From Microbacterium sp. AK031 (lineage in GTDB: Bacteria > Actinomycetota > Actinomycetes > Actinomycetales > Microbacteriaceae): a DNA stretch of 64,000 bases. Below the pieces are notes generated by a model. It was given only the letters and a program-made list of their open reading frames with translations, was not told the DNA's origin and did no database searches. The DNA lies in assembly GCF_024807145.1 (NCBI RefSeq), contig NZ_JANUCA010000006.1, positions 1 through 64,000 on the forward strand, read 5' to 3'. Every line of letters starts with the position of its first letter. The first letter of the stretch is position 1. A program made the position numbers and the translations under genes. This document shows positions 1,577-47,356 of the stretch, piece after piece.

Positions 1577-2368
1577 TCAGGCAAAGCGGGCTCCGAGACC
1601 CCCGTCGACCTCCCATGTCGCCCCGGTGACGAAGGCCGCGTGATCAGAGGCAATGAACGAGACCGTTGGCGCGATATCGGCAGGCGTGGCGACTCGACGC
1701 AGAGCGTGCGTGCTCTCGATGCGCTCGACGGCCTCGGGCCCGATGCGGTCGAAGAGCTCCTGAACGCGCTCGCTGCGCGTCCACCCCGGGCAGACCATGT
1801 TGACGCGCACTCCCCTGGGGCCGTAGTCCAGCGCGAGCGAACGCGTGAGCCCGCCCAGGCCTGCTTTGCCGGCGGCGTAGGGGAACGCACCCTCCTCGGT
1901 CAGCCGCGCGTGCAGCGAGCCGATGTTGACGATGTTCCCGCCACCCGCCGCGATCATCGACGGCAGCACGGCGCGAGACATGAGCCATGCCGAGGTGAGG
2001 TTGAGGCGCATGATCGCGTCCCACCGATCGATGCTCATGCTGACGGCATCCTCACTGGCATCCTCGCACGCGTTGTTGATGAGGATGTCGATCGCGCCCT
2101 CCTGAGTCACGATCTCGGCGACGGCCTCGATGACGGCACGCTCATCGGTCACATCGACGTGCCGGTAGCGGCAGGTGTCGCCGAGATGGTCGGCGACAGC
2201 CTCACCCTCCTCGTCGGCGATGTCGAAGATCCAAACCCGCGCCCCGTCAGCGACCCCCTGCTCGGCGATGGCCGCGCCGATCCCGAGCGCGCCGCCGGTG
2301 ACGATCGCGGTCTTGCCCTCCCAGAGCCGCCCGGCCGGGCCCCCTCCGATGGCTTCCACTGTCGACAT
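1577..2368 (-). CDS. SDR-family sugar dehydrogenase (probable aldose 1-dehydrogenase)
   Basis: This is a classical 263-residue short-chain dehydrogenase. It has the nucleotide-binding TGGALGIG (expected TGxxxGxG) near residue 25, NNACEDAS at the NNAG position, the catalytic Ser in NIGSLHARL, and YAAGK as the YxxxK pair. The C-terminus ends GGLGARFA. It shares long stretches with the SDR at 13428-14225, including FPYAAGKAG/FPYGVSKAG, GWTRSERV and the identical ARFA tail, so the two are paralogs. A strong GAGGAGGAG ribosome site lies before the ATG at 2368 and the gap to the enolase-like gene is 21 bp. Pairing with a lactonase (here a pseudogene) suggests oxidation of an aldose, such as galactose, to its lactone. 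The substrate is inferred. Confidence 0.75.
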   Translation of the reverse strand: MSTVEAIGGGPAGRLWEGKTAIVTGGALGIGAAIAEQGVADGARVWIFDIADEEGEAVADHLGDTCRYRHVDVTDERAVIEAVAEIVTQEGAIDILINNACEDASEDAVSMSIDRWDAIMRLNLTSAWLMSRAVLPSMIAAGGGNIVNIGSLHARLTEEGAFPYAAGKAGLGGLTRSLALDYGPRGVRVNMVCPGWTRSERVQELFDRIGPEAVERIESTHALRRVATPADIAPTVSFIASDHAAFVTGATWEVDGGLGARFA

Positions 2369-2389: not shown

Positions 2390-3676
2390 TCACGCAGACC
2401 GGCGGTACCCCGCCAGCGCGTCACGTCCGGCGAACGGCAGGTCGCCAATGCTCTCGAGTTCCAGCAGGCGGTTCCACTTGGCGGTGCGCTCGCTACGCAT
2501 CGTGGATCCGACCTTGATCTGCCGCGCGCCCCATCCGACGGCGAGGTCCGCCAGCCACGAGTCTTCCGTATCTCCGGACCGCGCGCTGACCACCGTTTCA
2601 AAGCCTGCGCCGATCGCCTCGAACACGACCCGCTCGGCGCGCGACACCGACCCCGCCTGGTTGACCTTGACCAGCACGGCATTCGCAGATGCCTCCCCGA
2701 TACCGCGCCGGACCCGCCCGAGGTTCGTCGCGAAGTGATCGTCCCCGAGCATCTGCACGTGAGGCAGGCGCGCGGTCGCCGCACGGGCCCCCGCCCAGTC
2801 ATCCTCGCCGACGACGTCCTCGATCGACACGATGGGATAGCGCGTGGTCCACCCGGCGACCAGGTCGAGCCACTCGGCGACGGCGAGTCGCTCGCCCTGC
2901 CCTGCAAGCACGATCGCGTCGCCCTCGACGAGCTGCGTCGCGGCGATGTCGAGCGCGATCGCCATCTCGTCTCCGGTGAACCCCGCCGCATCGATGCCGT
3001 CGGCGAGCAGTGCGAGCACCGCCTCATTGCTCTCAAGTCGAGCAGCGAGACCCCCTTCGTCGGCGACCAGCGCCGACCACCCACCGCGTTCATCCAGCAG
3101 ACGTGCGCAGGCGGCGCGGACGCGTGCGATCTGCTCGATGCCCTCGGTGAAGGATGCCGCTCCGACAGGCACGGCGAGGAAGTCCTGCACGTCGACGGCG
3201 CGACCCGCGTGCGCGCCGCCGGAGAGGATATTCACCATCGGCATCGGGATGCTCGCCGGCCGCGGGCCGGTCAGCGTCGACCAGAGCGGAGCGCGCTCGG
3301 ATGCCGCGTGAGCAACGGTCGCCGCGAGCGAGATCGCGAGAGCGGCGTTCGACCCGAGCCGTCCCAGGTTGTCGGTGCCGTCGTGCTCTTCGACGGCGGC
3401 GTCGAGGCCCTCCCGGTCAGCGACCGAGCGCCCCTCGACGATTCGGGCGTACTCCTCGTTTACGGCGCGGACCGCACCGGCGACGCCCCACCCGCCGTAG
3501 CGGTCACCGCCGTCGCGCTGCTCGAGCGCCTCGTGGCGCCCCGTGGAGGCGCCAGAGGGCACCACCGCACGGCCTTCAGCGCCGTTGGCGAGCGTCAGCG
3601 TGCACGCGACCGTGGGGCGGCCACGTGAGTCGAGGGCCTCCCAGGCGTGGGTGCGGACAATGCGATCGTCGGTCAT
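2390..3676 (-). CDS. enolase paralog with altered active site
   Basis: This 428-residue protein is collinear with enolase (2-phosphoglycerate dehydratase, normally about 425-430 residues) and has PSGASTG, VADEGG, IED, LGDD, KVNQAGS and IKVGSTMRSER. The lysines equivalent to yeast Lys345 (KVNQ) and Lys396 (IKVGS) and the Glu211 equivalent (ADEGG) are present. However, the canonical SHRSGE reads SARSGD, which loses the His373 equivalent. QEFM reads QDFL, so the Glu168 equivalent is Asp. GGKHA reads GGAHA. A housekeeping enolase would not be expected in a sugar operon, so this is a specialised paralog. I chose the ATG at 3676, which overlaps the kinase stop as ATGA, over the ATG at 3703. It may act on 2-phosphoglycerate or a related phospho-acid made by the adjacent kinase. 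Confidence 0.85.
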   Translation of the reverse strand: MTDDRIVRTHAWEALDSRGRPTVACTLTLANGAEGRAVVPSGASTGRHEALEQRDGGDRYGGWGVAGAVRAVNEEYARIVEGRSVADREGLDAAVEEHDGTDNLGRLGSNAALAISLAATVAHAASERAPLWSTLTGPRPASIPMPMVNILSGGAHAGRAVDVQDFLAVPVGAASFTEGIEQIARVRAACARLLDERGGWSALVADEGGLAARLESNEAVLALLADGIDAAGFTGDEMAIALDIAATQLVEGDAIVLAGQGERLAVAEWLDLVAGWTTRYPIVSIEDVVGEDDWAGARAATARLPHVQMLGDDHFATNLGRVRRGIGEASANAVLVKVNQAGSVSRAERVVFEAIGAGFETVVSARSGDTEDSWLADLAVGWGARQIKVGSTMRSERTAKWNRLLELESIGDLPFAGRDALAGYRRSA

Positions 3677-4671
3677 TCCGTTTCCTGTTCCATCAGTGTC
3701 CATGCAGTCTCGGGCGCGTCCGGCGCCTCGAGGAGCAACGTTCGTCCCAGTTCATGCGCGCGACGCTGCTCGGGTGCGCGCAGGTATTCTGCGGGCGACT
3801 TGCCATCGACTCGCGCCAGCAGCAGGCATCCGATCTGTCGCGACAGATGCGCGGCATCCGGAATCGGCGTGTCTCGGGTGTAGGCGTCGAGAAACGCTCG
3901 GGATGCCTCGGCGAACGCGTCGCGGCGCTCTGGTGCATGGATCGTCTTGAGAAGCAGATGGGTCTCGAGAAAGGCGACATCGAAGCTGGGATCCCCCAAG
4001 TGCGCGACCTCGAAGTCGATGATCCAAGCGCCACCGTCGCCGACGAGAATATTCTTGGGCGAGAAGTCCCCGTGGACCAAACACTGGCGGGTGTCGCGCA
4101 TGCGCTCCACCACGTCGTCGATCGCCGTCGCGAGGTCAGGGTTTCGGCGGGCCGCCGTGCGGTGGTACGGCTCGATCCGGAGAACGTCGAACGTCTCGAC
4201 ATCCGCAACGAGCTCTGCGCTGAGACCGCTTCCCCCTCGCGTAGCCTGATGCATGCGGGAAAGCGATCCGCCGAGCTGAGCAGCGATAGCGGGGTCGACA
4301 TCCCCGGCCAGGAGGCGAGTCTTCCAGTCGGTCCAGTCGTCGGGCGCCTGCTCCATCGTCATCGTGAGCGCCTCGGAGTCGAGGTCAACGACCGCCGGTG
4401 CCGCATCCGGGTCGATGCCCGACAGAACGCGCAGCCCTTCCGCCTCGCGTAGCACCCGCTCCCGTGGCGCAAACCAGGCCTCCGCGACCGCGAGCTTGGC
4501 TCGCGCCTGCTTGAGCACGAGGCGACGGGACCGGTCGGTCACGGCCAAGACGACGTTGCTCACTCCCCCACCGAGCAGCTGCGCCGTCGCGCGCGTACCG
4601 TCGACGACCCCCCGGCCGGCGAGATACGGAACGACGCTCTGCTCGTCGAGCAGCTCTTCGGCATCATTCAA
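3673..4671 (-). CDS. APH-fold small-molecule kinase (candidate glycerate-type kinase)
   Basis: This is a 332-residue aminoglycoside-phosphotransferase/choline-kinase-fold protein. The N-lobe has LLGGGVSNVVLAV and LVLKQA (nucleotide lysine). The catalytic loop is LVHGDFSPKNIL and the metal motif is IIDFEVAHLGDPSFDVAF. Such kinases phosphorylate hydroxyls on small metabolites. The start is a TTG that overlaps the upstream SDR stop (TTGA), and the gene overlaps the enolase-like start by ATGA, so translation is coupled on both sides. Its position between a diketo-acid-hydrolase module and an enolase paralog suggests that it phosphorylates the hydroxy-acid released by hydrolysis, for example glycerate to 2-phosphoglycerate. 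An antibiotic-resistance role is unlikely in this context. Confidence 0.8.
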   Translation of the reverse strand: MNDAEELLDEQSVVPYLAGRGVVDGTRATAQLLGGGVSNVVLAVTDRSRRLVLKQARAKLAVAEAWFAPRERVLREAEGLRVLSGIDPDAAPAVVDLDSEALTMTMEQAPDDWTDWKTRLLAGDVDPAIAAQLGGSLSRMHQATRGGSGLSAELVADVETFDVLRIEPYHRTAARRNPDLATAIDDVVERMRDTRQCLVHGDFSPKNILVGDGGAWIIDFEVAHLGDPSFDVAFLETHLLLKTIHAPERRDAFAEASRAFLDAYTRDTPIPDAAHLSRQIGCLLLARVDGKSPAEYLRAPEQRRAHELGRTLLLEAPDAPETAWTLMEQETE

Positions 4672-5441
4672 TATGTCGCCCGCCCGCCGCTAAGGTCAAA
4701 GGTGAAGCCAGTGGTGAATCCCGCGGCGGGCGAGATGACGAATGCGATCATCTCCGCCACCTCGTCCAGCTCGCCGGTGCGCCCCATCGGGATCTTCTCG
4801 AGCATGTAGTCGATGACCGACTGGGGCTGGCTGTCGAGGAACGGCGTGCGGATGACGGCGGGCGCGAGCGCGTTGACCGTGATCCCGGCGCGGCTGTACT
4901 CCTTGCCCTGCGCCTTGACGAGTCCGATGAGCCCTGCCTTGCTCGCGGAATAGCCGATCATGTTCGGGTTGCCCTCTTTGCCGGCGATCGACGCGACGTG
5001 TAGGATTCGCCCGTAGCCGTGCTCGAGGAAGTGCGGCACGGCGACCCGCGCAATCGTCAGGCCGGGCGTGAGGTTCACCGCGAGCGTGCGCTCGAACTCG
5101 TCGATCTCGACCTCGTGGCTGGGCCGTCCGAGCGGCCCTTGGATGCCGGCGGAGTTGACGACCGCGTGGACTCGCCCGCACCGCGCAACCGCACAGTCGA
5201 ACGCGGCACGCACGTCGGCCTCGTCGGTCACGTCGCACGCGGCGGATGCCGCGATACCCCCGGCATCCCGGATCGCCGCCGCGACCGCCTCGGCGGCGTC
5301 TCCATCACGGTCAGCGACGGTGACATCGACGCCACGTGCACCGAGCAGCAGAGCGGTCGCTTCGCCGATACCAGCGCCACCACCGATCACCACGGCGGCG
5401 TAGTCGCGCGGGAACTGCTCGAGAGCGACGTGCGCGCTCAT
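4668..5441 (-). CDS. SDR, probable 2-keto-3-deoxy-aldonate 4-dehydrogenase
   Basis: This 257-residue SDR has GGGAGIG in the nucleotide loop, NSAGIQGPLG, the catalytic Ser in VASIAGKEGNPN, YSASK, and the tail LSGGRATY. SDRs with SIAGKEGNPN next to a FAH-family hydrolase are the 2-keto-3-deoxy-L-fuconate/L-rhamnonate 4-dehydrogenases of hydrolytic sugar-acid pathways, which oxidise C4 to make the 2,4-diketo acid. The ATG overlaps the FAH stop (ATGA), which supports a two-step unit. The substrate could be the 6-deoxy acid from L-fuconate, or a C6-hydroxylated acid from D- or L-galactonate. The flanking kinase and enolase paralog argue for the latter. Confidence 0.8.
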   Translation of the reverse strand: MSAHVALEQFPRDYAAVVIGGGAGIGEATALLLGARGVDVTVADRDGDAAEAVAAAIRDAGGIAASAACDVTDEADVRAAFDCAVARCGRVHAVVNSAGIQGPLGRPSHEVEIDEFERTLAVNLTPGLTIARVAVPHFLEHGYGRILHVASIAGKEGNPNMIGYSASKAGLIGLVKAQGKEYSRAGITVNALAPAVIRTPFLDSQPQSVIDYMLEKIPMGRTGELDEVAEMIAFVISPAAGFTTGFTFDLSGGRATY

Positions 5442-6301
5442 CGCGTACCACCACGCACGAACTCCGCGAACTCGTGGCGCTGCACGCCGAGACCGGTGAT
5501 CTCGACCTCGACGACATCACCCGCAGAGAGGAACTTGCCGGGCGTGAAGCCCGATCCGACGCCCTGCGGGGTTCCGGTATTGATGACGTCCCCGGGGAGC
5601 AGCGTCATGAACTGACTGACGTACCAGACGAGATGATCGACGTCGAAGATCATGTCGGCCGTCGACGAGTTCTGCCGAACCTCGTTGTTCACCCGCAGTC
5701 GCAGGTCGAGTGCTTGCGGATCGGGGATCTCGTCGGTGGTCGCGATCCAGGGCCCGAGCGGGTTGAAGGTGTCGCAATTCTTGCCCTTGTCCCACTGCCC
5801 ACCGCGCTCGAGTTGGAAGTGGCGCTCCGAGACATCGTCCGAGATCGCATACCCGAGGATGTGCTCGCGCGCCTCGGCGGGCGATGAGAGGTACTCGGCG
5901 CGCCGCCCGATCACGATGGCAAGCTCGACCTCGTAGTCGGTCTTCTCACTGCTCGGGGGAATGATGACCGTATCGTTCGGCCCTTGCACAGTGTAGGGCG
6001 TCTTCATGAAGAGGATCGGCTCCTCAGGGATCGGCATCTGTGCCTCCGCCGCGTGCTGACGGTAGTTCAGTCCGACGCAGACGACCTTGCCGGGCCGAGC
6101 AATCGGAGACCCGATACGCACCGTCGTCAGGTCGATATCCGCGGCATCCTCGGCGAGTGCGGCCTTGATGAGGTCCATTCCCTCGATCGTCATCGGGTCT
6201 GCACCCTCGGTGATCACGGAGCGCACGTCGAGCCCCAGAACCCCGTCGGTGCTCGCGACCTCGATCTCGTGGCCTGGGTCTCCTACGCGAAGGAACTTCA
6301 T
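5438..6301 (-). CDS. FAH-family 2,4-diketo-3-deoxy-aldonate hydrolase
   Basis: This 287-residue member of the fumarylacetoacetate hydrolase superfamily has the core motifs VGLNYRQHAAE, EPILFMKTP, SEKTDYEVELAIVIG (metal ligands Glu/Glu), DVSERHFQLERGGQW, KNCDTFNPLGPW and NTGTPQGVGSGF. This pattern matches the 2,4-diketo-3-deoxy-L-fuconate/L-rhamnonate hydrolases, which cleave C3-C4 to pyruvate plus a hydroxy-acid. With a fuconate-type substrate the second product is L-lactate. With a galactonate-type substrate it is glycerate. This is the first gene of the operon, with AGAGGA before the ATG at 6301, and it faces the shared promoter region at 6302-6446. Confidence 0.88.
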   Translation of the reverse strand: MKFLRVGDPGHEIEVASTDGVLGLDVRSVITEGADPMTIEGMDLIKAALAEDAADIDLTTVRIGSPIARPGKVVCVGLNYRQHAAEAQMPIPEEPILFMKTPYTVQGPNDTVIIPPSSEKTDYEVELAIVIGRRAEYLSSPAEAREHILGYAISDDVSERHFQLERGGQWDKGKNCDTFNPLGPWIATTDEIPDPQALDLRLRVNNEVRQNSSTADMIFDVDHLVWYVSQFMTLLPGDVINTGTPQGVGSGFTPGKFLSAGDVVEVEITGLGVQRHEFAEFVRGGTR

Positions 6302-6446
6302 CGTCGTCCTCTCATTCGTCCGTACTGACGTCTACTGCCAGAAAGATATCAGATACGTCGACGCCGCTCAACGCGGAACTGCGGGGATTTTTCGCGAAAA
6401 CCGCATGTGCATATCTGATACCTTTGCGGGAACAAGGAGGTTGAAC
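6302..6446. promoter_or_regulatory. divergent promoter with two TATCNGATA boxes
   Basis: The 145-bp gap between the divergent FAH and galactonate-dehydratase operons holds TATCAGATA at 6347-6355 and TATCTGATA at 6412-6420. Each is a 9-bp palindrome around one base, and they are reverse complements of each other. A third copy with the same flanks, CATATCAGATACC, is at 53480-53488 before another transporter operon. Small palindromes of this form suit the FadR-type regulator encoded at 7651, which is my inferred ligand. Confidence 0.7.
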
Positions 6447-7592
6447 ATGAAGATCGCCCGGATCGAGACGTTCCTGGTGCCGCCACGCTGGTTGTTCGTG
6501 CGCGTGGAGACCGATGAGGGCCTGGTCGGCTGGGGAGAGCCGGTTGTCGAGGGCCGCGCACGCACGGTGAAGGCTGCTGTCGAAGAGCTCTCTGCCCCGC
6601 TCATCGGGCGAGACTCGAGCCGCATCGAGGACCTCTGGCAAGAGCTCACGCGAGCGGGCTTCTACCGAGGTGGCGCAGTGTTCTCCAGCGCCATCGCCGG
6701 ACTCGACCAGGCTCTGTGGGACATCGCCGGCAAGCGCCTCGGCGTCCCGATCTACCAGCTTCTCGGCGGTGCCGTGCGCGAACGCGCACGCGTCTACGCG
6801 TGGATCGCCGGCGACCGCCCCGGCGATATCGCCGCCGAGGCGCAGATCCGCCGCGAACAGGGGTTCGACTGCGTGAAGATGAACGGATCCGCCGAGCTGA
6901 CTGCGATCCCGTCCTCGGGCGACCTCCGCTCCGTCATCGCGCGCGCCGAGGCGGTGCGCGATGCAATGGGCGACGACGACTTCGCGCTCGACTTCCACGG
7001 TCGGTTCTCGCCCGCGATGTCACGTCGAACGCTCCCCCTGCTGGAGTCGTTGAATCCGCTGTTCGTCGAGGAGCCGGTTGTTCCCGAGCTCGCCGGCGCG
7101 CATCTGGCTCGGATCGTGGAATCGACGACAGTGCCGATTGCCACCGGCGAGCGCGCGTACTCACGCTGGGACTTCGTTCCCCTGTTGGCCTCTGGAATCG
7201 CCGTGGCTCAGCCGGATGTGTCCCACTGCGGCGGGATCTCAGAGATGCGACGCATCGCCGCGCAGGCCGAGACCTCTGGAGTTGCACTGGCCCCGCACTG
7301 CCCGCTCGGTCCGATTGCTTTGGCGTCGTGTCTGCAGGTTGACTTCGCAGCGCCGAACTTCCTGATCCAGGAGCAGAGCCGTGGCATCCACTACAACGAC
7401 GACTGGGACGTGCTCGACTACGTGCTCGATGGCTCGGTCTTCGACGTGGTAGCTGGCTCGATCGAGCGCCCCACGCGTCCCGGGCTCGGAATCGAGATCG
7501 ACGACGCAGCTGTTCGGGACGCGGCCAAGCGCGGTCACGACTGGCACGCGCCTGTGTGGCGGCATCGTGACGGAAGCCTCGCCGAGTGGTGA
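6447..7592 (+). CDS. dgoD: D-galactonate dehydratase family (enolase superfamily)
   Basis: This 381-residue mandelate-racemase-type dehydratase converts D-galactonate to 2-keto-3-deoxy-D-galactonate. The metal ligands and acid/base residues are visible in order: VKMNGS (Lys region), DFHGRF (Asp and the DgoD-specific His-Gly-Arg), FVEEPV (Glu), IATGERAYSRWDF (Glu), QPDVSHCGG and LAPHCPLGPIALAS (His). The run SRWDF...HCPLGPIALAS is characteristic of DgoD. AAGGAGG at 6434-6440 sits six bases before the ATG at 6447, so the longer upstream frame is rejected. It is divergent from the FAH-SDR-kinase-enolase operon, which could consume its product. Confidence 0.92.
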   Translation: MKIARIETFLVPPRWLFVRVETDEGLVGWGEPVVEGRARTVKAAVEELSAPLIGRDSSRIEDLWQELTRAGFYRGGAVFSSAIAGLDQALWDIAGKRLGVPIYQLLGGAVRERARVYAWIAGDRPGDIAAEAQIRREQGFDCVKMNGSAELTAIPSSGDLRSVIARAEAVRDAMGDDDFALDFHGRFSPAMSRRTLPLLESLNPLFVEEPVVPELAGAHLARIVESTTVPIATGERAYSRWDFVPLLASGIAVAQPDVSHCGGISEMRRIAAQAETSGVALAPHCPLGPIALASCLQVDFAAPNFLIQEQSRGIHYNDDWDVLDYVLDGSVFDVVAGSIERPTRPGLGIEIDDAAVRDAAKRGHDWHAPVWRHRDGSLAEW

Positions 7593-7650
7593 GCTCGTGC
7601 CTCCAACACTCGTGAACCCTGAGATCACCAGGGAGGATAAGCTCCATGCT

Positions 7651-8448
7651 ATGGTCGCCAGCGCACCCCCGGAACCTCACGCTGATCCCCATGATCTCAG
7701 CACTGTCGCGTCAGGTGCCCGCTCGGACGAGACCGCGCTGGCCTACGCCGTGCGGGAACTGGAAGAGTTGATCGTCGGCCAAGCCGAGGCAGGCGATCAG
7801 CTGCCGGCAGAGGCGTCACTGGCGGAGTCGCTCGGCGTCAGCCGCCTCACGGTCCGCGAGGCACTCAAGGTCCTGGCCGGCCAGGGCCTCGTCGAGCTCA
7901 GCCGCGGCCGGCGCCCCACCGTCCGTCAACCCGACAGCAGCGTTATGTCGCGGTTCTTGAGCGTCGCCATCCGACGCGACTCACGTTCTGTGCTCGAGCT
8001 TCTCAACGTCCGTCGCTCACTTGAGGTGCTCTCGGCTTCCGAGGCGGCGAAGCACGCCGGCAGAGCGGCGGTGAGCGCGATGAGTTCGGCACTCGACGAG
8101 ATGCAGCGCTCCGCGGACGAACTCGACGGATCACCCGCGAGCATTGCTCGATACAACATGGCTGATGTCGACTTTCACGAAGCTCTGGCTCTGGCCAGCG
8201 GCAATCGCATGCTCTCTCTGCTTCTCGAGAGCCTCGCTTCCTCGCTGCACCACAGCTTCACGCAGAGCTTCCACGGCTTTATAGCGGCAGGCGGAGATGT
8301 CCAGGATGCCGTGGAAGAGCACCGCCACATTTTCGAGCTTGTCTCTGCTGGCGATAGCGCCGGCGCGGAGAAGGCTATGAAACGGCATCTCGAACGCACC
8401 GCTCGCGACCTGCAGCTCACGCTGAACGGGTCCGGGCCCGCGAAGTAG
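7651..8448 (+). CDS. FadR/GntR-family regulator
   Basis: This 265-residue regulator has a winged helix (PAEASLAESLGVSRLTVREAL, then GQGLVELSRGRRPTV) and an all-helical FCD effector domain with metal ligands in the VDFHEALALASGN region and EEHRHIF. The first in-frame ATG would overlap the dehydratase stop. I use the ATG at 7651, about 14 bases after GGGAGG, although the site spacing is long. It probably senses a sugar acid of the galactonate type and may bind the TATCNGATA boxes at 6347, 6412 and 53480. A truncated relative is found at 19214-19564. Confidence 0.88.
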   Translation: MVASAPPEPHADPHDLSTVASGARSDETALAYAVRELEELIVGQAEAGDQLPAEASLAESLGVSRLTVREALKVLAGQGLVELSRGRRPTVRQPDSSVMSRFLSVAIRRDSRSVLELLNVRRSLEVLSASEAAKHAGRAAVSAMSSALDEMQRSADELDGSPASIARYNMADVDFHEALALASGNRMLSLLLESLASSLHHSFTQSFHGFIAAGGDVQDAVEEHRHIFELVSAGDSAGAEKAMKRHLERTARDLQLTLNGSGPAK

Positions 8449-8480: not shown

Positions 8481-11534
<3,054 letters not shown>

Positions 11535-11579: not shown

Positions 11580-12566
11580 TCAATCGTCGGGCTCGCCGTC
11601 GTCGAGGTTCGTCGGCGCGGGTCCGAGAGCATCCAGTTCGTCCCACACCGCATCCGGGATCGGCGTGGCTGCGAGCTCGTCGAGTTGGGCGAGACGCGCT
11701 GTCGATGACGCGCTCACCACGGTCGAGTCGATGAGCGGTGCGCGGAGCGAGAAGGCCAGCGCGACGGCCTTGAGGTCGACGCGATAGCTCCTGCACACGT
11801 CTTCGGCCCGTGCCACCCAGGCGCGCAGCTGCGCGGTGGTGTCGCTGTATCCGTATCGCGCACCGGAGCCGGAGCCTTTCGCCAGCAGACCCGCGCCGAA
11901 AGGAGCCGCGTTAAACACGGTCATCCCCCGGGATCTGGCGTCGGCGAACAAGGCGCGTGCGGACTGGTCGACGATCGTGTACCGGTTGTGCACGAGAACT
12001 GCGTCGAACAAGCCGGTTTCGACGAAAGGTCGAACCATGGAAATCGGCCCCGCCGCGATTCCAATCGCGTCGACCGCCCCGGCCTCGCGGAGCTCTATCA
12101 TCCCCGCGATCGCTCCGTCGCGCCCCGACGCCTGGTCGAAGGTGATGGTGAAGGGATCGTGAAGGTGCAGCAGCGAGACGCGATCGACCCCCAGTCTTGC
12201 GAGGCTCTCGTCGTAGGACCTCAGCACCCGATCGCGGTCGAACACCCCGGAGTCCAGGTCACGGTCGACCTTGGTCACCACCGGTGCAGGGCCGGTCACT
12301 CCCGAATGGCGCAGTGCGATCCCGATGACTTCTTCCGAGCGGCCACCGTCGTACTCGTTCGCGGTGTCGATGAGCGCATGGGGGCTCTCGATCATGGCGA
12401 CGGCGAGGTCAATCGCGACGTCGCGCTCCACGGTCCCCGCGAACGCCGCACGTCCTAGACCAGATGCCCCCAACGTCATGAGGGACGGCGAGGGGGTTGG
12501 CACCGGTCGGGCGGGGGAGGGCGTCGGCAGACGGCGCGTCGACCGCGCCGCGGGTTCCGGGCTCAC
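11580..12566 (-). CDS. aldo/keto reductase, L-fucose/L-galactose 1-dehydrogenase-like
   Basis: This 328-residue AKR has the conserved Asp-Tyr pair in IDTANEYDGGRSEEVIG, the Lys in VVTKVDRD, the His in LLHLHDPF, and the cofactor end AFSLRAPLIDSTVVSAS. The family includes D-threo-aldose (L-fucose, L-galactose) 1-dehydrogenases. I chose the GTG at 12566 because it overlaps the lactonase stop as GTGA and keeps the first strand. The internal ATG at 12479 would cut it. With the preceding SMP-30 lactonase and SDR it makes an aldose oxidation set. The second AKR at 48229-49194 is a distant paralog. Confidence 0.78.
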   Translation of the reverse strand: MSPEPAARSTRRLPTPSPARPVPTPSPSLMTLGASGLGRAAFAGTVERDVAIDLAVAMIESPHALIDTANEYDGGRSEEVIGIALRHSGVTGPAPVVTKVDRDLDSGVFDRDRVLRSYDESLARLGVDRVSLLHLHDPFTITFDQASGRDGAIAGMIELREAGAVDAIGIAAGPISMVRPFVETGLFDAVLVHNRYTIVDQSARALFADARSRGMTVFNAAPFGAGLLAKGSGSGARYGYSDTTAQLRAWVARAEDVCRSYRVDLKAVALAFSLRAPLIDSTVVSASSTARLAQLDELAATPIPDAVWDELDALGPAPTNLDDGEPDD

Positions 12567-13456
12567 AGCGTCACCGGAGCCCACGCGACCACCGGGAGGC
12601 CGCGGACGCCTGGGTCGAGGAGGAACACCCCACCGTCTTGCGCTTGCGGTTCCGCAAGGTCGACGGTTGCCGAGGTGACCAGCAGGCGGTCTCGCTCGGG
12701 TCCCACGAACGCGACCGACGACACGTGTCTCGCGGGGAGCGTGCGGGTCTCGCGGACGCTCCCGTCGGGACGGTACCGGCGCACGGCAGCGCCGCCCCAG
12801 ACCGCGACCCAGATGTCGCCCCCGGCGTCGACGGCGATCCCGTCCGGGTAACCGTCTGTCACATCGAACGAGCCGCGCACGGATACACCGTGCCCGTCGT
12901 CGTCGAGGATGTCGACGCGGTTGCGCAACGTATCGACGTGGTACATCGTGCTCCCGTCCTCGGAGAAGGCTATTCCGTTGGAGAGGCTGAGACCCACGCG
13001 AAGCGTGCAAAGCCTCCCCGCCTCGTCGAGGCGGAAGAGGGACTCGTCCGCGCGGGCACCGTCGCCGCTCAGCGTACCGAGCACGAGGCGCCCACGAGGG
13101 TCGCATGTCGCGTCGTTGAAGCGACGCCCTTCCGCCAGAGGCACAACCCGCTCTCCCTGGACGACACCCCCGGCGTCGACATGGACGAGTCGATCAGACT
13201 CCACCACCAGCATCCCCCCGTCTTCGGAGGGAAGGATCGCGCACACTTTCCGGTCGGACTCCCACGCGAGCGTCGGGTTCAGGGCGGGCCATGTGGCCGC
13301 CCAGACCTGGCGGCCGTCGATATCGACCCAGAGCGCTCGGTCCCGAATCGGCTCCCAGACCGGGCCCTCGGCGAGCACGTGCGCGTGACGCCCTACGCGT
13401 CGAACATCGTGGTCATGCGAATCGTGGTCATGCAAAGCGAGCCCCCAATCCGCCAT
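12563..13456 (-). CDS. SMP-30/gluconolactonase family sugar lactonase
   Basis: This six-bladed beta-propeller lactonase of about 297 residues opens sugar lactones to aldonates. The metal ligands are visible as Glu in LAEGPVWEP, Asn in LSLSNGIAFSEDG and Asp in DGYPDGIAVDAGGD. It is intact, unlike its relative at 1063-1566. The start is uncertain. An ATG at 13456 lies inside the SDR tail, while a TTG at 13435 (TTGCATGA) overlaps the SDR stop more typically. The leader repeats HDHDS-HDHDV, encoded by a 15-bp direct repeat near 13405-13434. Context suggests a galactono- or related lactone. Confidence 0.85.
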   Translation of the reverse strand: MADWGLALHDHDSHDHDVRRVGRHAHVLAEGPVWEPIRDRALWVDIDGRQVWAATWPALNPTLAWESDRKVCAILPSEDGGMLVVESDRLVHVDAGGVVQGERVVPLAEGRRFNDATCDPRGRLVLGTLSGDGARADESLFRLDEAGRLCTLRVGLSLSNGIAFSEDGSTMYHVDTLRNRVDILDDDGHGVSVRGSFDVTDGYPDGIAVDAGGDIWVAVWGGAAVRRYRPDGSVRETRTLPARHVSSVAFVGPERDRLLVTSATVDLAEPQAQDGGVFLLDPGVRGLPVVAWAPVTL

Positions 13457-14225
13457 CGACGATCCAGGTTGCACCCGTCACGAACGACGCGCGGTCGCTC
13501 GCGATGAACGACACCGCGTCGGCGACCTCGGCAGGGGAGGCCGTTCGTCTCAGCGCGTGCGTCGCGTCGATACGCGCGACCTCGTCCGGTCCGATGCGTT
13601 CGAAGTGCTGCTCGACCCGCTCACTGCGCGTCCACCCCGGGATCACGGTGTTGACACGGATGCCGGCCGGACCATAGTCCAGAGCGAGGCTTCGACCCAT
13701 CGCCTCCACTCCGGCTTTGCTGACGCCGTAGGGGAAAGCTCCCTCGACGGTCATCCGACCGTGCAGCGATCCGATGTTGACGATGGCGCCGTGTCCGGCC
13801 GCGGTCATCGTCGGGAGGACCTCCCGTGCAGCCAGCCACACGGACTTCACGTTGAGCCCCATGACCGCGTCCCACGTTTGTGGGGACATCTCGACCGCAT
13901 CGTGGCCGGCGTCCATGCTGGCACTGGTGACGAGGATGTCCACGCGGCCGCTGTCGCGAACGGCTTCCGCGACGACAGCGGATAGGGCCGACGAATCCGT
14001 CACGTCTGCGTTGACGAATCGGATGCGATCCGGTGCGATAGCGGCGAGCGCCCGTCCGGCATCCCCGTCGATGTCCACCGCCCACACGAGGGCACCGTCG
14101 GCGACCAGTTGGCGCGCGACCGCGGCGCCGATGCCCTGAGCGGCGCCGGTGACGATCGCGGTCTTGTGCTCGTGCAACGGGGTAGCGCCGATCCGATTCG
14201 GTTGTGCCGGTGATGCGACGCTCAT
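13428..14225 (-). CDS. SDR-family sugar dehydrogenase (paralog of 1577-2368)
   Basis: This 265-residue SDR has TGAAQGIG, the catalytic Ser in NIGSLHGRM, YGVSK (YxxxK), GWTRSERV and the C-terminal GGLGARFA. The normal NNAG tetrad Asn region reads TSASMDAG, a deviation from family consensus. It overlaps the sulfatase stop by ATGA and the following lactonase by a few bases. It is probably an NAD(P)-dependent aldose 1-dehydrogenase that feeds the lactonase. The close relative at 1577-2368 has the same partner order, which indicates duplication of an SDR-lactonase pair. Confidence 0.78.
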   Translation of the reverse strand: MSVASPAQPNRIGATPLHEHKTAIVTGAAQGIGAAVARQLVADGALVWAVDIDGDAGRALAAIAPDRIRFVNADVTDSSALSAVVAEAVRDSGRVDILVTSASMDAGHDAVEMSPQTWDAVMGLNVKSVWLAAREVLPTMTAAGHGAIVNIGSLHGRMTVEGAFPYGVSKAGVEAMGRSLALDYGPAGIRVNTVIPGWTRSERVEQHFERIGPDEVARIDATHALRRTASPAEVADAVSFIASDRASFVTGATWIVDGGLGARFA

Positions 14226-15670
14226 GTGGCAACCTCCATGATCCGGGCGAACTCGTCGACGAGGGACCGGAGTGTGTCGGGGTGTGCGGATGCGAGGTCG
14301 TGGTCCTGGTGAGGATCCTCTCGCAGGTTGTAGAGCCGGTGGCGGTCAGCGTTTCCCGTCTCTATCCCCTTCGCGGGCAACCGCTCCGGTCCGGCGTGCG
14401 GGGGGATCATCGCCCATTCGCCCCGCCGGAACGCAGTCCGATGGATGGCTTCGACCACGAGTGACTCCCGACCGATTTCGGTGTCGCCGAGGAGTGCCGC
14501 CAGATGGTTCTCGGAGTCGGCGGTCGGCACATCGGCGCCGACCAGAGCCGCAATCGACGCGAGAAGGTCCATCTGGCAGATCAGCGCATTACTCGTTCCC
14601 GGCGCCACGCGAGCCGGCCAGTGCACGATGAAGGGCACCCGTGTACCCGCGTCGAACAGGCTGTACTTGCCTCCGCGCAGGGGGCCGGCTGGACGGTGGT
14701 CGCCCACACGCTCGACGGCGTCGTCTTGGTACCCGTCGTCGAGGACCGGCCCATTGTCGCTCGAGAACACGATCAAGGTGCTGTCTAGCACCCCCGCCGT
14801 TTCGAGCTCGTCGAGGATCTCGCCGACACACCAATCCGCCTCGGCGATCGCGTCCCCGCGGGGCCCCATGTCGGTGGCACCGACAAATCGCGCACTCGGC
14901 GTGCGTGGGACGTGGGGTTGGTGGAGCGCGAGATAGAGGAAGAAGGGCTTCTGCTCCTCGCCCGACTCCCGCGAACGGCGGACGAAATCCCTCGCTCGCT
15001 CGATGAGGTGTTCAGCCATGTCCTCATCGGTCCACCGCGCCGCCTGCCCCCCGCGCATGTATCCGATGCGTCCGATCCCGTTTACGATCGCGTTATCGTG
15101 CCCGTGAGACGATGCCAGCCGAAGCAGCTCCGGATGCTCGGCGGCGACAGGCTCCCCCGGGAACGGATGCTCGTACGAGACCTCGATGGGATCCTCAGGA
15201 TCGAGGCCAACGACCGAGCGGTCCTCGATGTACACCGTCGGGACGCGGTCCTGGGTCGCCGCGATGATGTAGCTCTCCTCGAAGCCGACGTCGAGGGGGC
15301 AAGGCCGGATCGGACGGTTCCAATCGACGCCGCCGTGACCGAGACCAAGGTGCCACTTGCCGACGATCCCCGTCCGGTAGCCGCGTGCGACCAGCATGCT
15401 CGGCAACGTCATCTGATCTTCTTCGATGATCATGGCGGCGTCGCCGGTAAGGATCTCCGCCCCCGACTTGCGCCACGGGTACTCCCCGGTCAGCAACGCG
15501 TATCGGCTCGGTGTACAGGTCGCAGATGTCGCGTATCCATCCGTGAAGCGCAGCCCGCCGGACGCGAGTCGGTCTATGTTCGGCGTCTCGACCGCGGAGG
15601 CGCCGTATGCCCCGACGTCGCCGTAGCCGAGGTCGTCCATGTAGATGATGACGATGTTGGGTCGAGTCAT
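14222..15670 (-). CDS. type I (formylglycine) sulfatase, cytoplasmic
   Basis: This 482-residue S1-family sulfatase starts MTRPNIVIIYMDDLGYGD (metal Asp-Asp). It carries the activation motif CTPSRYALLTG, whose Cys must be converted to formylglycine, then GKWHLG and SSDNGP, the second metal site. The ATG at 15670 is preceded by AAGGAGGGG, and no signal peptide precedes the fold, so it should act on imported oligosaccharides in the cytoplasm. No formylglycine-generating enzyme is in the window. It heads a four-gene operon with SDR, lactonase and AKR, and is divergent from the Zn-dehydrogenase operon. The exact sulfate position removed cannot be told. Confidence 0.92.
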   Translation of the reverse strand: MTRPNIVIIYMDDLGYGDVGAYGASAVETPNIDRLASGGLRFTDGYATSATCTPSRYALLTGEYPWRKSGAEILTGDAAMIIEEDQMTLPSMLVARGYRTGIVGKWHLGLGHGGVDWNRPIRPCPLDVGFEESYIIAATQDRVPTVYIEDRSVVGLDPEDPIEVSYEHPFPGEPVAAEHPELLRLASSHGHDNAIVNGIGRIGYMRGGQAARWTDEDMAEHLIERARDFVRRSRESGEEQKPFFLYLALHQPHVPRTPSARFVGATDMGPRGDAIAEADWCVGEILDELETAGVLDSTLIVFSSDNGPVLDDGYQDDAVERVGDHRPAGPLRGGKYSLFDAGTRVPFIVHWPARVAPGTSNALICQMDLLASIAALVGADVPTADSENHLAALLGDTEIGRESLVVEAIHRTAFRRGEWAMIPPHAGPERLPAKGIETGNADRHRLYNLREDPHQDHDLASAHPDTLRSLVDEFARIMEVAT

Positions 15671-15800
15671 CGGTCCCCTCCTTGCGCATCCATGAGCAAA
15701 TTCATCTAACCTATTTATAGCAGTCGACCGCTCGGCCACGCGCCGCAGCCCGACCCTGCACGTGCGCTGTCCTCTCGACAGCGTTGCCAATCTACTATGA

Positions 15801-16877: not shown

Positions 16878-17638
16878 ACGATCTGTTCGACCTCACCGGC
16901 CGTACGGCCGTCGTCACCGGTGCCAAGCGCGGAATCGGACTGGCTATGGCCGAAGCGCTCGCGGCGGCCGGCGCCGACATCGTCGGCGTCTCCGCGACGC
17001 TTTCACCTGCGGAAAGCGAGGTGCGAAGTCGGGTGGAGGCGCACGGTCAGCGGTTCCACGGCTACGCCGTCGACTTCGCCGACCGCGGCGCGGTCCTCTC
17101 CTTCGCCGAGACCGTCGTCACCGAACACGGTCCCATCGACATCCTGGTCAACAACGCCGGGACGATACGGCGCGCGCCCGCAGCGGAGCACGCCCTGGCC
17201 GACTGGGATCACGTTCTCGACGTGAACCTGTCCAGCCAGTTCGCGCTCACGCAAGCGCTGGGCCGGGGCATGCTCGAACGCGGGCTCGGCAAGGTCATCT
17301 TCACCGCGTCGCTGCTCAGCTTCCAGGGCGGCATCACCGTTCCGGGATATGCCGCGTCCAAGTCGGGGATCGCAGGTCTGACCAAAGCCCTCGCGAACGA
17401 GTGGACCGCGCGAGGAGTCAACGTAAACGCGATCGCCCCCGGCTATATCGCCACCGACAACACCCAGGCACTGCAGGATGACCCTGACCGCTCACGAAGC
17501 ATCCTCGAACGGATCCCCGCCGGACGGTGGGGGCGTGCCGACGACCTCGGCGGCGCGACGGTGTTCCTGGCGTCCCGGGCGTCGGACTACGTCTCGGGTG
17601 TGACCCTTCCGGTCGACGGCGGGTGGCTCGGCCGATGA
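16874..17638 (+). CDS. kduD: KduD-like 2-dehydro-3-deoxy-D-gluconate 5-dehydrogenase
   Basis: This 254-residue SDR matches KduD: LTGRTAVVTGAKRGIG, NNAGTIRRAPA, the catalytic Ser in TASLLSFQGG, YAASK, NAIAPGYIATDNT and the tail LPVDGGWLGR. KduD interconverts 2,5-diketo-3-deoxygluconate and D-KDG. After the preceding Zn-dehydrogenase it would complete the C5 epimerisation of L-KDGal to D-KDG. It overlaps both neighbours as ATGA, so stoichiometric coupled translation is likely. Confidence 0.88.
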   Translation: MNDLFDLTGRTAVVTGAKRGIGLAMAEALAAAGADIVGVSATLSPAESEVRSRVEAHGQRFHGYAVDFADRGAVLSFAETVVTEHGPIDILVNNAGTIRRAPAAEHALADWDHVLDVNLSSQFALTQALGRGMLERGLGKVIFTASLLSFQGGITVPGYAASKSGIAGLTKALANEWTARGVNVNAIAPGYIATDNTQALQDDPDRSRSILERIPAGRWGRADDLGGATVFLASRASDYVSGVTLPVDGGWLGR

Positions 17639-18261
17639 ACGTCGCCCTCGACGCCTTGATCGCCGCCCGCGTCGTGCCGGTCGTCGTGCTCGACGACGCC
17701 GCCGCGGCCGAGCCGTTGGCTGACGCTCTTGTCGCGGGAGGCATCCGCGCGATCGAGATCACCATCCGAACGCCGGCCGGCCTCGATGCGCTGGCGTCGC
17801 TCGCTTCCCGGGATGACCTGATCGTCGGTGCCGGGACGGTCACTTCGCGTCGAGAGCTCGCCGATGTGCGCGCGGCGGGTGCCCGGTTCGCCGTCAGTCC
17901 GGGGTTCGACGCGGACCTTGTCTACGCCGCACGCGAAACCGACGTGCTGCCGGTGCCGGGGGTCGGAAGCGCGACGGAGGCGCAAGCGGCTCGTCGCGCC
18001 GGACTCGACCACGTGAAGGTCTTCCCAGCGGGAGCGCTCGGCGGACTGCCCTTCATTCGCGCACTGCACGGGCCGTTTCCCGAGATGCGGTTCATGCCCA
18101 GCGGCGGAGTCGACCAGACCAAGGCCGCCGAGTACCTCGCGGACCCTGCGATCTTCGCAGTCAGCGGTAGCTGGATGGTGCCGGCGGAGGCGATCCGGGA
18201 CGGGGACTTCGAGATGATCACGACGTTGGCCCGCGCGACGATGGCGGCGCTCGATGCCTGA
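17635..18261 (+). CDS. KDPG/KDPGal aldolase
   Basis: This 208-residue class I aldolase of the Eda/DgoA family has the Glu in IEITIRT, the phosphate-binding GAGTV, the Schiff-base Lys in HVKVFPAGALGG and FMPSGGV. It splits 2-keto-3-deoxy-6-phosphogluconate (or the galactonate epimer) to pyruvate and glyceraldehyde 3-phosphate. It overlaps KduD by ATGA and the kinase start by 8 bp. Both the AHG-derived D-KDG and DgoD-derived D-KDGal could end here once phosphorylated. Confidence 0.92.
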   Translation: MNVALDALIAARVVPVVVLDDAAAAEPLADALVAGGIRAIEITIRTPAGLDALASLASRDDLIVGAGTVTSRRELADVRAAGARFAVSPGFDADLVYAARETDVLPVPGVGSATEAQAARRAGLDHVKVFPAGALGGLPFIRALHGPFPEMRFMPSGGVDQTKAAEYLADPAIFAVSGSWMVPAEAIRDGDFEMITTLARATMAALDA

Positions 18262-19217
18262 GGACGCAGAGACACCCGCCATCGTGCCCATCGGCGAGAC
18301 GATGCTCCTCCTGCACAGCCAACGGGCGGAGGGGCTCGAGATGGCTGCCGCGCTCGATGTGAGCATCGGAGGCGCTGAGAGCAATGTGGCCATCGGCGCC
18401 CGACGACTCGGCGTGCCGTCCGCTTGGGTCAGTCGACTCGGCGATGACAGCGCCGGCCTGCGGATCCAGCGCGATCTGCGCGCGGAGGGCGTGACCGTGT
18501 ACGCCCGTGTCGATCCCGATCTCCCACCGGCATGATGCTGAAAGAGCGACGCAGCAGCAACGCCACGCACGTGTGGTATCACCGGGCGGGTAGCGCAGCC
18601 TCCCGTCTGACACCGGCCGACGTGCCGGACGGACTCATCGAGAGCGCCCGTGTCCTGCACCTGACGGGCATCACGCCGGCGCTGTCGACCGACGCACATG
18701 CGACGGTGCGTGCTGCCGTCGGCCGCGCCAGGGCGGCCGGTGTGCTTGTGAGTTTCGATGTGAACCACCGAGGCAGGCTGTGGTCCGCGTCGTGTGCGCG
18801 GCCCGCATACCGCGATCTCGTCACCGCCTCAGGCCTTGTGTTCGCCGGGCTGGACGAGGCCCGCTTGATCCTCGACGACGATCTCCTCGACGCCGAGGCC
18901 GCCTGTGCGGAACTGCACGGGCTCGGGGCGGCCACCGTCGTCATCAAGCTCGGTGGCGATGGAGCACTGCTCTCCGACGCGGATGGAAGGATCCACCGCG
19001 CCGCGATCCCCGTCGACGTCGTGGACACCGTGGGAGCCGGCGATGCGTTCGTGTCGGGGTTCCTCGCCGCACTGGTCACCAGGGCCGACCGGGTGCAGGC
19101 GCTTGAGGCCGGAATCCGCTCGGGTGCATTGGCGTGCACGGCGGCCGGCGACTGGGAAGGACTCCCCGCCCCGCGGACGTCGAGGCACTCTCTGCCACCG
19201 AACCCGTCTCCCGGTGA
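18254..19217 (+). pseudogene. 2-keto-3-deoxygluconate/galactonate kinase with two -1 frameshifts
   Basis: This PfkB-family KDG kinase is split into frames. The first part starts MPEDAETPAIVPIGETML and has GGAESNVAIGARRLG and WVSRLGDD. It stops after DPDLPPA, where the family reads DxxxPTGxMLKER. The second frame resumes MLKERRSSNATHVWYHR, FDVNHRGRLW and the catalytic GAGDAF. Adding one C to the CCC run at 18523-18525 restores DPDLPTGMMLKER. A second missing C near 19164-19172 moves the end from GLPAPRTS to GLPAPADVEALSATEPVSR and a stop at 19217. Two single-C losses in C-runs may be sequencing or assembly error rather than true decay. If real, the operon lacks its kinase. Confidence 0.85.
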
Positions 19218-19564
19218 AAGCTCAGCCCGCGCGTCGACGAGTCGTCCTCGAGGGACGCGGGCTGATCGACTTGGCCAAGGGCAAGCGACCGACGGCGCAC
19301 AACGCCGGCCGCGCCCGTCGCGCCGCACTCGAGGCCACGGTGTCGGAGACGGAGACGATCGAGGACAGCTTCCGGCGCAGCATGAGCGGATTCCTCGCGC
19401 AGGGGCGTGACATCCGCGATGGGGCAGCCTCGCACCGAGCGCTGTACGCCGCCGTCGCCTCGGGCGATGCGCGCGACGCCGAACGGCAGGCAGCCGCGAA
19501 CCTCGCCTCCTCCGAGCCGGCTCTCCGCGTCGGCGCTCCGATCACCGGGAACCCGTCGGCCTGA
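19214..19564 (+). pseudogene. truncated FadR/GntR regulator remnant
   Basis: A frame starting with GTG, overlapping the kinase stop, reads GRGLIDLAKGKRPTA, which is the wing of a GntR helix domain (compare GQGLVELSRGRRPTV at 7651-8448). It then jumps to EDSFRRSMSGFLAQG and GAASHRALYAAVASGDA, which is the last part of an FCD domain. The recognition helix and about 100 residues of the effector domain are missing. It cannot bind DNA as a normal FadR protein. Its presence after the kinase suggests that this operon once carried its own regulator. Confidence 0.65.
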
Positions 19565-20411: not shown

Positions 20412-20442
20412 AGGGGTGGGTGCGGCGCCGCACCCACCCCTT
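20411..20442. terminator. perfect 32-bp palindrome, bidirectional terminator
   Basis: AAGGGGTGGGTGCGGC (20411-20426) is followed directly by its exact reverse complement (20427-20442). The palindrome lies between the ends of the PhyH fragment (+) and the sulfatase (-), with TT at one side and AA at the other. It is a strong intrinsic-terminator candidate for both strands. Confidence 0.8.
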
Positions 20443-21773: not shown

Positions 21774-21775
21774 GC

Positions 21776-41931: not shown

Positions 41932-42212
41932 CACGTCTCTCTTCCTCGAGAAAAGGCAAGCGACCATCGCCGCCTTTCGGTACAAATTCCGCGATCGAGC
42001 AATACCCGTGGGCTCGACCACATCGTGATGCGCCGCCCAGCTCTCCCGGCGGCCATCAGATGGATCGGCGCGACATATACTCCACCACATCAGTTGATGA
42101 AGATCATATCATTCCTGACCCAGCACGCAATGCGAGCCCCATTTTTTGTCTCTTTGCCCAGAAAGTGCGAGGTGACATATGATGAATGGGGCCTACTGAA
42201 AGAGGAGCGAAG
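41932..42212. promoter_or_regulatory. divergent promoter of importer 2 and sulfatase-GH29
   Basis: The region carries GATCATATCATT at 42102-42113, identical to 27584-27595, and ACATATGATGAAT from 42175, related to the palindrome at 27653-27666. The shared sites link importer systems 1 and 2. The left half (41932-42060) shows no clear motif. Confidence 0.6.
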
Positions 42213-46603: not shown

Positions 46604-47307
46604 TCGATCAGGAAATCCTCGACGCCGAGCAAGTGGGCCGACATCCGTATTCGTGCGGCATCCGGGTCCCGCCGCCGCATCGCGGCGAAGATCGACATGT
46701 GATCGGCGTGCGTGCGAGCTTCCGCGCCCTCTTCGCTGATCGCACGCCAGAGTCGAGCTCGGATAGTGCGCCCGGCGAGCGCGTCAATCATTCCCTCGAG
46801 TGCGGGGTTGCCGGAGGCTCTCGCGATGAGGCGGTGGAAGGCGATGTCGGCCTCCATGAACGCTTCATGGTCGGCGGCCGGCTCGTCGAGCAGAGCACCG
46901 GCATCGCGCAGAAGCTTCGACGCCTCGGCCAGCGCGCCGTCGTCGATGTGCAGCGTCGCCTGGAAGACGGCTTCGGCCTCGAGCACCCGGCGGACCGCCT
47001 GCAGGTGGCGCACCCCGTCGGGGCTCTGCAGGTCGACGAGGAAGCTCATGGGGGCCAAAAGCAACCCGGGATCGAGAGAGGTGACGTACGTCCCGTCACC
47101 CTGCCTGGTTGCCAGGACGCCCATGATGCACAGGGCACGCACCCCCTCCCGCAGGGGCCCGCGCGAGACATCGAGCCGCTCCGCCAGATCCCGTTCGATC
47201 GGAAGGCGATCCCCTGGCCGAAGGTCGCCGGCCAGGATCATGCCCTTGATGCCGTCCACGACGACATCCGTCTGCGAGCGACTCGCGCGCACCGTTTCCT
47301 CAGTCAT
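46567..47307 (-). CDS. FadR/GntR-family regulator of the fuconate branch
   Basis: This 246-residue FadR-type protein has a winged helix (PIERDLAERLDVSRGPLREGV, RQGDGTYVTSL) and an FCD domain with DIAFHRLIARASGNPAL and RTHADHMSIFAAM metal ligands. The ATG at 47307 is 49 bp from the divergent lactonase start. It is embedded between fucD and the rest of the branch, so it probably senses fuconate or a related acid and controls the palindrome at 45185 and the 47308-47356 gap. Confidence 0.9.
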   Translation of the reverse strand: MTEETVRASRSQTDVVVDGIKGMILAGDLRPGDRLPIERDLAERLDVSRGPLREGVRALCIMGVLATRQGDGTYVTSLDPGLLLAPMSFLVDLQSPDGVRHLQAVRRVLEAEAVFQATLHIDDGALAEASKLLRDAGALLDEPAADHEAFMEADIAFHRLIARASGNPALEGMIDALAGRTIRARLWRAISEEGAEARTHADHMSIFAAMRRRDPDAARIRMSAHLLGVEDFLIDHDESDAISRLS

Positions 47308-47356
47308 CTGACCATTGTACGGTCGAGTCGGATCTCGACCGAGATTGGAGAACGTC

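Follow-up and report, generated by a model that had tools for sequence, protein, structure and literature searches.

The Route III non-phosphorylative pathway, which serves L-rhamnose, L-fucose and pentoses, passes a sugar acid from a dehydratase to a short-chain dehydrogenase/reductase (SDR) and a hydrolase of the FAH family. In the available text of three papers its products are pyruvate together with lactate or glycolate, and neither a kinase nor an enolase is named as taking part (PMC6336799, PMC11199699 and PMC13406643, the last of which concerns the known L-fucose route). A title cited in that literature (Chan 1979) speaks of L-galactose being turned into lactate and glycerate in mammalian tissue. 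Galactonate is degraded by the dehydratase DgoD, the kinase DgoK and the aldolase DgoA of the De Ley–Doudoroff pathway. Here we describe an operon of Microbacterium sp. AK031 (genome size 3.4 Mb) that has features of both. It lies within positions 1 to 64,000 of contig NZ_JANUCA010000006.1, a stretch of 64,000 nucleotides that we call the window, and encodes a FAH-family hydrolase (FAH), an SDR, a putative acid kinase (KIN) and an enolase paralog (ENO). The locus is like Route III in its adjacent SDR and FAH-family genes accompanied by a sugar-acid dehydratase, in the closest structural relative of the hydrolase and in its His-x-x-Glu motif, but it differs in joining to these a galactonate dehydratase, a kinase and an enolase. 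With the De Ley–Doudoroff pathway it shares the DgoD-type dehydratase; the difference is that oxidation and hydrolysis would replace the kinase and the aldolase, while an Eda-type aldolase and a PfkB kinase are encoded some 10 kb away. A literature search found no title or opening of an abstract with this gene set or with the enolase variant, which is weak evidence of absence as subscription journals were thinly covered.

What might such an operon do? The reading that we favour, and to which we give slightly less than an even chance, is an oxidative–hydrolytic route that degrades a hexonate, in all likelihood D-galactonate, and in which a dedicated pair of enzymes carries D-glycerate to phosphoenolpyruvate (PEP). 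DgoD would convert D-galactonate to D-2-keto-3-deoxygalactonate, the operon SDR would oxidize the latter at C4, and FAH would hydrolyze the C3–C4 bond to give pyruvate and D-glycerate, the D configuration being deduced from the stereochemistry of D-galactonate. KIN would then phosphorylate glycerate at C2, and ENO would remove the 3-OH from 2-phosphoglycerate (2-PGA) to yield PEP. Together KIN and ENO would make up a portable two-gene end module, joined elsewhere to hydroxypyruvate reduction or glyceraldehyde oxidation as possible sources of glycerate. If this is so, galactose-type acids are broken down hydrolytically with recovery of their C3 half as PEP, and a further kinase fold joins those of the three classes of glycerate kinase set out in the available part of PMC2063504.

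The original prediction held that the four genes overlap and that the galactonate dehydratase diverges from them across a common regulatory region, and both statements stand. Coordinates and Pfam matches agree with the first: FAH and SDR share ATGA at 5438–5441, SDR and KIN share TTGA at 4668–4671, and KIN and ENO share ATGA at 3673–3676 if ENO starts at 3676 rather than 3703. As to the second, a gap of 145 bp separates the operon from the dehydratase gene, whose product scores 562 bits with PRK14017 (cut-off 311). The original prediction did not mention the second SDR downstream of ENO, the other KIN–ENO pair of the genome, the nearby aldolase and PfkB kinase, or the altered active site of ENO. 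FAH matches Pfam PF01557 (FAA_hydrolase) with 245 bits, and its best relative in the PDB is 8gsr, an L-2,4-diketo-3-deoxyrhamnonate hydrolase (E 4e-68). It carries His83-Ala-Ala-Glu86, the spacing of which matches the His83 and Glu86 named for hydrolase C785_RS20550 in the available text of PMC6336799. At 289 bits, FAH stays below the cut-off of 500 bits of the curated 2,4-didehydro-3-deoxy-L-rhamnonate hydrolase model NF053535; judged by its sequence, it is a relative of those enzymes and not that equivalog. For the operon SDR, no model among the 25 listed from NCBIfam reached its cut-off.

KIN gives 70 bits with the Pfam APH model, and its motifs H200-G-D, S204-P-K-N, D219 and E221 are invariant in 38 alignment rows. 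The solved folds closest to its predicted structure (mean predicted local distance difference test score, pLDDT, 95.3) are those of 5-methylthioribose (MTR) kinases, with Z of 36.0–38.5 at 20–21% identity, followed by PsiK with Z of 33.0 and 25.7. The likeness to MTR kinase is one of fold, which gives no information on substrate; the difference is that KIN, at 62.5 bits, lies under the cut-off of 275 of the MTR kinase model TIGR01767 and is placed among sugar-acid genes. In the available part of PMC2063504, glycerate kinases fall into class I (PF02595), class II (MOFRL) and class III (P-loop enzymes of the phosphoribulokinase/uridine kinase family). The reaction proposed for KIN is theirs, but a Pfam scan detected in it neither PF02595 nor MOFRL, nor, for class III, any P-loop kinase model at E 0.001. 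Its modelled APH/MTR-kinase fold places KIN outside all three of those classes.

ENO has the Pfam domains Enolase_N and Enolase_C and passes the curated enolase model TIGR01060 (397.6 bits, cut-off 300). It is 40–42% identical to the canonical enolase of the same genome and 56% identical to the genome's second paralog. ENO retains the motifs with the residues that bind the metal, the Lys that acts as base and the Arg-Ser that binds phosphate, roles known in part from PMC4450660. According to the available text of that paper, 2-PGA is coordinated in Chloroflexus enolase by the Glu homologous to the one replaced in ENO, together with Lys, Arg, Ser and one more Glu; by sequence comparison, ENO keeps these last four. 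In a tree of 58 rows, canonical and variant enolases stand on opposite sides of one branch with a support of 100 in the SH-like approximate likelihood ratio test (SH-aLRT). The tree, which contains 21 canonical enolases and 37 paralogs drawn from a set of 71 (alternate ones, with the addition of one of the two that this genome has), is a quick one with SH-aLRT support only and one long branch, that of L094 (loci are given by L numbers); as it is unrooted, it separates two sides and does not say which is older.

How widely is this arrangement conserved? The KIN loci considered number 99: 80 named loci, 4 and 13 others, the window and locus L004. The 80 are the best of at least 564 kinase relatives obtained by scanning named genomes with the kinase alignment. 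All are different places, not independent lineages, and include close relatives (the freshwater actinobacteria, L157/L159, L168/L169 and L093/L102); three places appear under two names (L022 and L037, L023 and L036, L025 and L081). Gene calls in other genomes are crude choices among open reading frames (ORFs), and some neighbours were named by eye. KIN occurs in 8 of 299 genomes of the host's family at E 1e-25 and, at E 1e-60, in 9 of 398 genomes of the phylum of a Vibrio genome and 6 of 395 of that of a Flammeovirga genome, this genome and the centre genomes being counted. An enolase homolog lies directly downstream of KIN in 85 of the 99 places (68 + 4 + 11 + 2). Among the 14 without one, L066, L074 and L106 end at a contig edge within 150 bp, L084 has a lactonase-like gene between KIN and the enolase, L157 has an enolase a few kb from KIN and L062 a piece of one 9.9 kb away; no adjacent enolase was seen at the rest. 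FAH homologs (E 1e-15) are found within 10 kb of KIN at 29 of the 99 loci and D-2-hydroxyacid dehydrogenase homologs (E 1e-10) within 6 kb at 13, both being present at four. FAH, D-2-hydroxyacid dehydrogenase and SDR were found in none of 20 neighbourhoods (up to 20 kb) of canonical enolases from related genomes, a control biased by its housekeeping surroundings. When ORFs of 86 loci were clustered, the kinase was represented at 86, the enolase at 74 and SDR, a broad superfamily, at 53. We conclude that the deeper conserved unit is the kinase–enolase pair rather than the whole operon.

The operon itself recurs as well. Conservation of the gene order beyond this strain, on which the original prediction had staked itself, was found in Galbitalea (L022/L037) and Paraoerskovia (L029), which keep the order FAH-SDR-KIN-ENO together with DgoD and a GntR-type regulator; a metagenome-assembled Nocardioides genome (L033) has the same order without DgoD. 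Homologs of the operon SDR stand in the corresponding position, with 69% identity at L022/L037 and 78% at L029; for DgoD the values are 72% and 76%, with 67% in L031. FAH, SDR, KIN and ENO co-occur in three phyla, the loci of Pseudomonadota and Bacteroidota having other dehydratases. L162 and L163, from the Pseudomonadota sample, link the four families in another arrangement, the dehydratase of L162 being DgoD-like but below the cut-off (276 bits against 311). L166, from Bacteroidota, combines the four with an IlvD-type dehydratase, a galactose-mutarotase-family protein and, by eye, SMP-30-like and SDR genes. In freshwater actinobacteria (L040, L044 and others) the pathway families accompany an IlvD-type dehydratase, and in L026–L028, L080 and L081 they accompany UxuA-like genes. 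The nearest named function of the IlvD-type enzymes of L040 (862 bits) and L166 (821 bits) is L-arabinonate dehydratase, with a cut-off of 882. Since their dehydratases score below the specific cut-offs, any substrate assigned to L162, L040 and L166 is provisional.

KIN–ENO pairs also have other neighbours: some pairs that lack a nearby FAH adjoin a gene for a D-2-hydroxyacid dehydrogenase or an aldehyde dehydrogenase, which is in keeping with the original prediction. An aldehyde dehydrogenase gene stands beside the pair at L094 (Pfam) and L099 (by eye), and this enzyme, FAH and D-2-hydroxyacid dehydrogenase could each make glycerate; those of the three kinds of neighbour that were tested stayed below the cut-offs of curated models for specific functions. 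At L086 and L095 a 2-hydroxyacid dehydrogenase, a hydratase-like gene and an HpcH/HpaI-like aldolase gene, seen by eye, accompany the pair, and maybe reflect aldol cleavage to hydroxypyruvate. At L073 (8879–13396) an MR-type dehydratase, the pair and a class I glycerate kinase are encoded consecutively.

Is there a comparison within the same genome? The original prediction reasoned that hydrolytic routes for 6-deoxy sugars need no kinase and that glycerate from galactonate would call for a kinase and an enolase, and this logic is favoured by locus L111. There the genome's other close FAH (52–54% identical) is encoded with an SDR directly behind it. The same stretch encodes an amidohydrolase, an aldo-keto reductase and a dehydratase 58% identical to the fuconate-type one of the window, and no gene of KIN or ENO type occurs in its 16.5 kb. 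This is as expected if the two enzymes are required only for products that carry a 3-OH: the lactate formed from a 6-deoxy sugar requires neither. The window's fuconate-type dehydratase, 39 kb from the operon, has no homolog at E 1e-30 in the other KIN loci examined, and no further FAH closely similar to that of the operon is encoded in the window. An L-fucose-type set made up of the fuconate-dehydratase-like gene, an amidohydrolase, an aldo-keto reductase and a rhaM-type mutarotase occupies 45269–49541 of the window. A second KIN–ENO pair of this genome, 44% and 56% identical to that of the operon, lies at 8580–10898 of L004 (contig 13), surrounded by genes for a 2-hydroxyacid dehydrogenase, an FGGY kinase and a Zn-alcohol dehydrogenase (Pfam) and by transporter genes (by eye); the contig ends, by eye, in an IS3-type transposase fragment.

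What, then, weighs against a route through D-glycerate to PEP? The genome also encodes a canonical enolase (L005) and two class I glycerate kinases, so that the pair would not be needed for plain D-glycerate; no MOFRL glycerate kinase was found in this genome, and no search for class III enzymes was made in this or the other genomes. All 25 genomes reached via KIN loci, those of 0.9 and 1.1 Mb included, have one or more further enolases (that of the Vibrio genome is in two pieces, and 20 of the genomes were examined for the motif), and a glycerate kinase is present in 23, of class I in 17 and of class II in six others. KIN and ENO as ‘exactly the missing steps’, as the original prediction had them, are ruled out by these enzymes here and in the 25 relatives. 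Two actinobacterial KIN genomes, of 0.9 and 1.1 Mb and of completeness not given, showed no class I or II glycerate kinase; KIN is the only candidate found in them, which fits glycerate as its substrate. Further contrary points come from individual loci. L031 encodes DgoD and KIN–ENO followed by a second DgoD, an Eda-type aldolase and a PfkB kinase, and therefore both galactonate routes can coexist at one locus. L024, a partial exception to the contrast seen at L111, has KIN–ENO beside an L-fucose-like set (FAH, SDR, amidohydrolase and aldo-keto reductase), a class I glycerate kinase gene directly follows the pair at L073, and L089, from Planctomycetes, shows no catabolic cluster by eye. The active site of ENO also speaks on this side. 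In all 72 paralog rows Asp takes the place of the Glu that is E164 in the canonical enolase of this genome. At the position of its His363, 70 rows have Ala and two have Gly, and at that of Asn151, 58 have Ser and 14 have Gly, one place (L025/L081) being counted twice in these rows. Canonical enolases of 20 related loci have SHRSG in 20 cases and QEF in 19, one being missed by the pattern. The Glu and His positions are Glu168 and His373 of yeast enolase, and the His and Asn lie near the leaving group; no paper on the His position was found. ENO is like phosphopyruvate hydratase in belonging to TIGR01060 and in its metal-ligand motifs, Lys and Arg-Ser, but unlike it in having Asp and Ala for the active-site Glu and His of EC 4.2.1.11 and in lying across the branch. 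Because the residues near the leaving group differ from those of the canonical enolases compared, the conversion of ordinary 2-PGA to PEP by ENO is only predicted.

The pathway could follow the same logic with the ENO group acting on another 2-phospho acid made by KIN, be it 2-phospho-L-glycerate or one with a larger C3 group (a tetronate, for example), which we regard as possible though on balance doubtful. All three replacements shrink side chains, the altered Glu is homologous to one that coordinates 2-PGA in the available account of PMC4450660, and the further enolases and glycerate kinases just counted would make a second ordinary pair superfluous to D-glycerate. The L-fucose-like genes joined to KIN–ENO at L024 would give L-glycerate if they acted on L-galactose. 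A dehydrogenase of the L-fucose pathway accepts L-2-keto-3-deoxygalactonate, according to the available part of PMC11199699. The galactonate- and mannonate-type dehydratases and the D-2-hydroxyacid dehydrogenase family nearby point instead to D-glycerate, a larger acid is not a cleavage product of a hexonate, and no recurring gene for handling a product other than PEP was seen beside the pair. A broader proposition, that the separate enolase branch, mostly coupled to an MTR-kinase-like kinase, acts on a substrate other than ordinary 2-PGA (2-phospho-L-glycerate, for example) as a portable end module serving several sugar-acid pathways in many phyla, seems to us plausible but somewhat short of an even chance; such a branch would be easy to overlook. 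Since the window gene passes the NCBI enolase cut-off, its relatives may carry the label ‘eno’, and if their substrate differs a housekeeping name conceals a different reaction. Could FAH and SDR instead serve a 6-deoxy sugar or a pentose, giving lactate or glycolate, with KIN–ENO devoted to an unrelated substrate and only the operon in common? The characterised relatives of FAH do use 6-deoxy and pentose intermediates; at 70 of the 99 KIN loci FAH is absent from the surrounding 10 kb (a few of the stretches do not extend so far), which weighs against the favoured reading too; an arabinofuranosidase-like gene (by eye) adjoins the dehydratase at L031; and the resemblance of the IlvD-type dehydratases beside KIN–ENO at L040 and L166 to L-arabinonate dehydratase likewise tells against galactonate, as a pentonate would give glycolate. 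Yet all four genes overlap, their families occur together in three phyla and the genome has its own separate L-fucose-type FAH–SDR cluster, and we consider this explanation unlikely. Plain redundancy, in which KIN is an ordinary glycerate kinase and ENO a spare enzyme retained for co-induction only, would agree with the passing of the phosphopyruvate hydratase cut-off by ENO; it is very improbable, given that the tree sets ENO apart from canonical enolases encoded by related genomes, that its active-site changes are fixed and that genomes as small as 0.9 and 1.1 Mb retain a second enolase.

Table 1. Features of the operon and its surroundings in the window, with the evidence for each.
Feature	Position	Strand	Evidence or remark
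FAH-family hydrolase, proposed 2,4-diketo-3-deoxy-hexonate hydrolase	5438..6301	(-)	Pfam, PDB relative, His-x-x-Glu
SDR, proposed 2-keto-3-deoxygalactonate 4-dehydrogenase	4668..5441	(-)	Pfam adh_short/adh_short_C2; ATGA overlap with FAH
Acid kinase (KIN), APH/methylthioribose-kinase fold, TTG start	3673..4671	(-)	Pfam APH
Enolase paralog (ENO), ‘SARSG’ group	2390..3703 (likely start 3676)	(-)	TIGR01060
Second SDR, probable sugar 1-dehydrogenase, fifth operon gene	1577..2368	(-)	21 bp downstream of ENO
Galactonate dehydratase, DgoD type	6447..7592	(+)	PRK14017
Divergent regulatory region common to operon and dgoD, two TATCWGATA sites	6302..6446		145 bp
FadR/GntR-type regulator, start uncertain	7567..8448	(+)	Pfam GntR and FCD
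LacZ-type beta-galactosidase, likely galactose supplier	8517..11534	(+)	Pfam GH2 domains
SMP-30 lactonase	12563..13474	(-)	Pfam SGL, 189 bits
Third SDR (61% identity with the second), probably a sugar 1-dehydrogenase	13428..14225	(-)	

How might the operon and dgoD be regulated together? The two TATCWGATA sites between them lie at 6347–6355 and 6412–6420, and the window contains three matches against 0.03 expected. The FadR/GntR-type regulator, homologs of which (45–58%) stand beside pathway genes in L022/L037, L029 and L031, is a candidate binder of these sites. One TATCTGATA copy falls within the dgoD–gntR interval of L022; an exact TATCWGATA copy was not found in L029, L031 or L033. The third site of the window, TATCAGATA at 53480–53488, lies by eye between a GH2-type gene and an ABC permease gene, ahead of the latter, and the gene at this site is a possible further member of the regulon.

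Among the remaining genes, the LacZ-type beta-galactosidase has a 58% homolog beside the pathway genes of L029, and the second SDR a 61% homolog in L022 beside a dehydratase and a lactonase. Below the second SDR, at 1069–1485 on the minus strand, is a shortened remnant of an SMP-30 lactonase, 54% identical to the intact one at 12563–13474; in Galbitalea (L022) a lactonase homolog occupies the place of this remnant. The Eda-type aldolase and PfkB kinase lie at 17.5–19.4 kb, together with an SDR and a Zn-dehydrogenase (16898–19410), and possibly provide the usual galactonate route for 2-keto-3-deoxygalactonate. Finally, a sulfatase is encoded at 14222–15790 (Pfam) and sulfatase-like proteins, by eye, at 20442–21803 and 42186–43649, which perhaps reflects the use of sulfated galactans.

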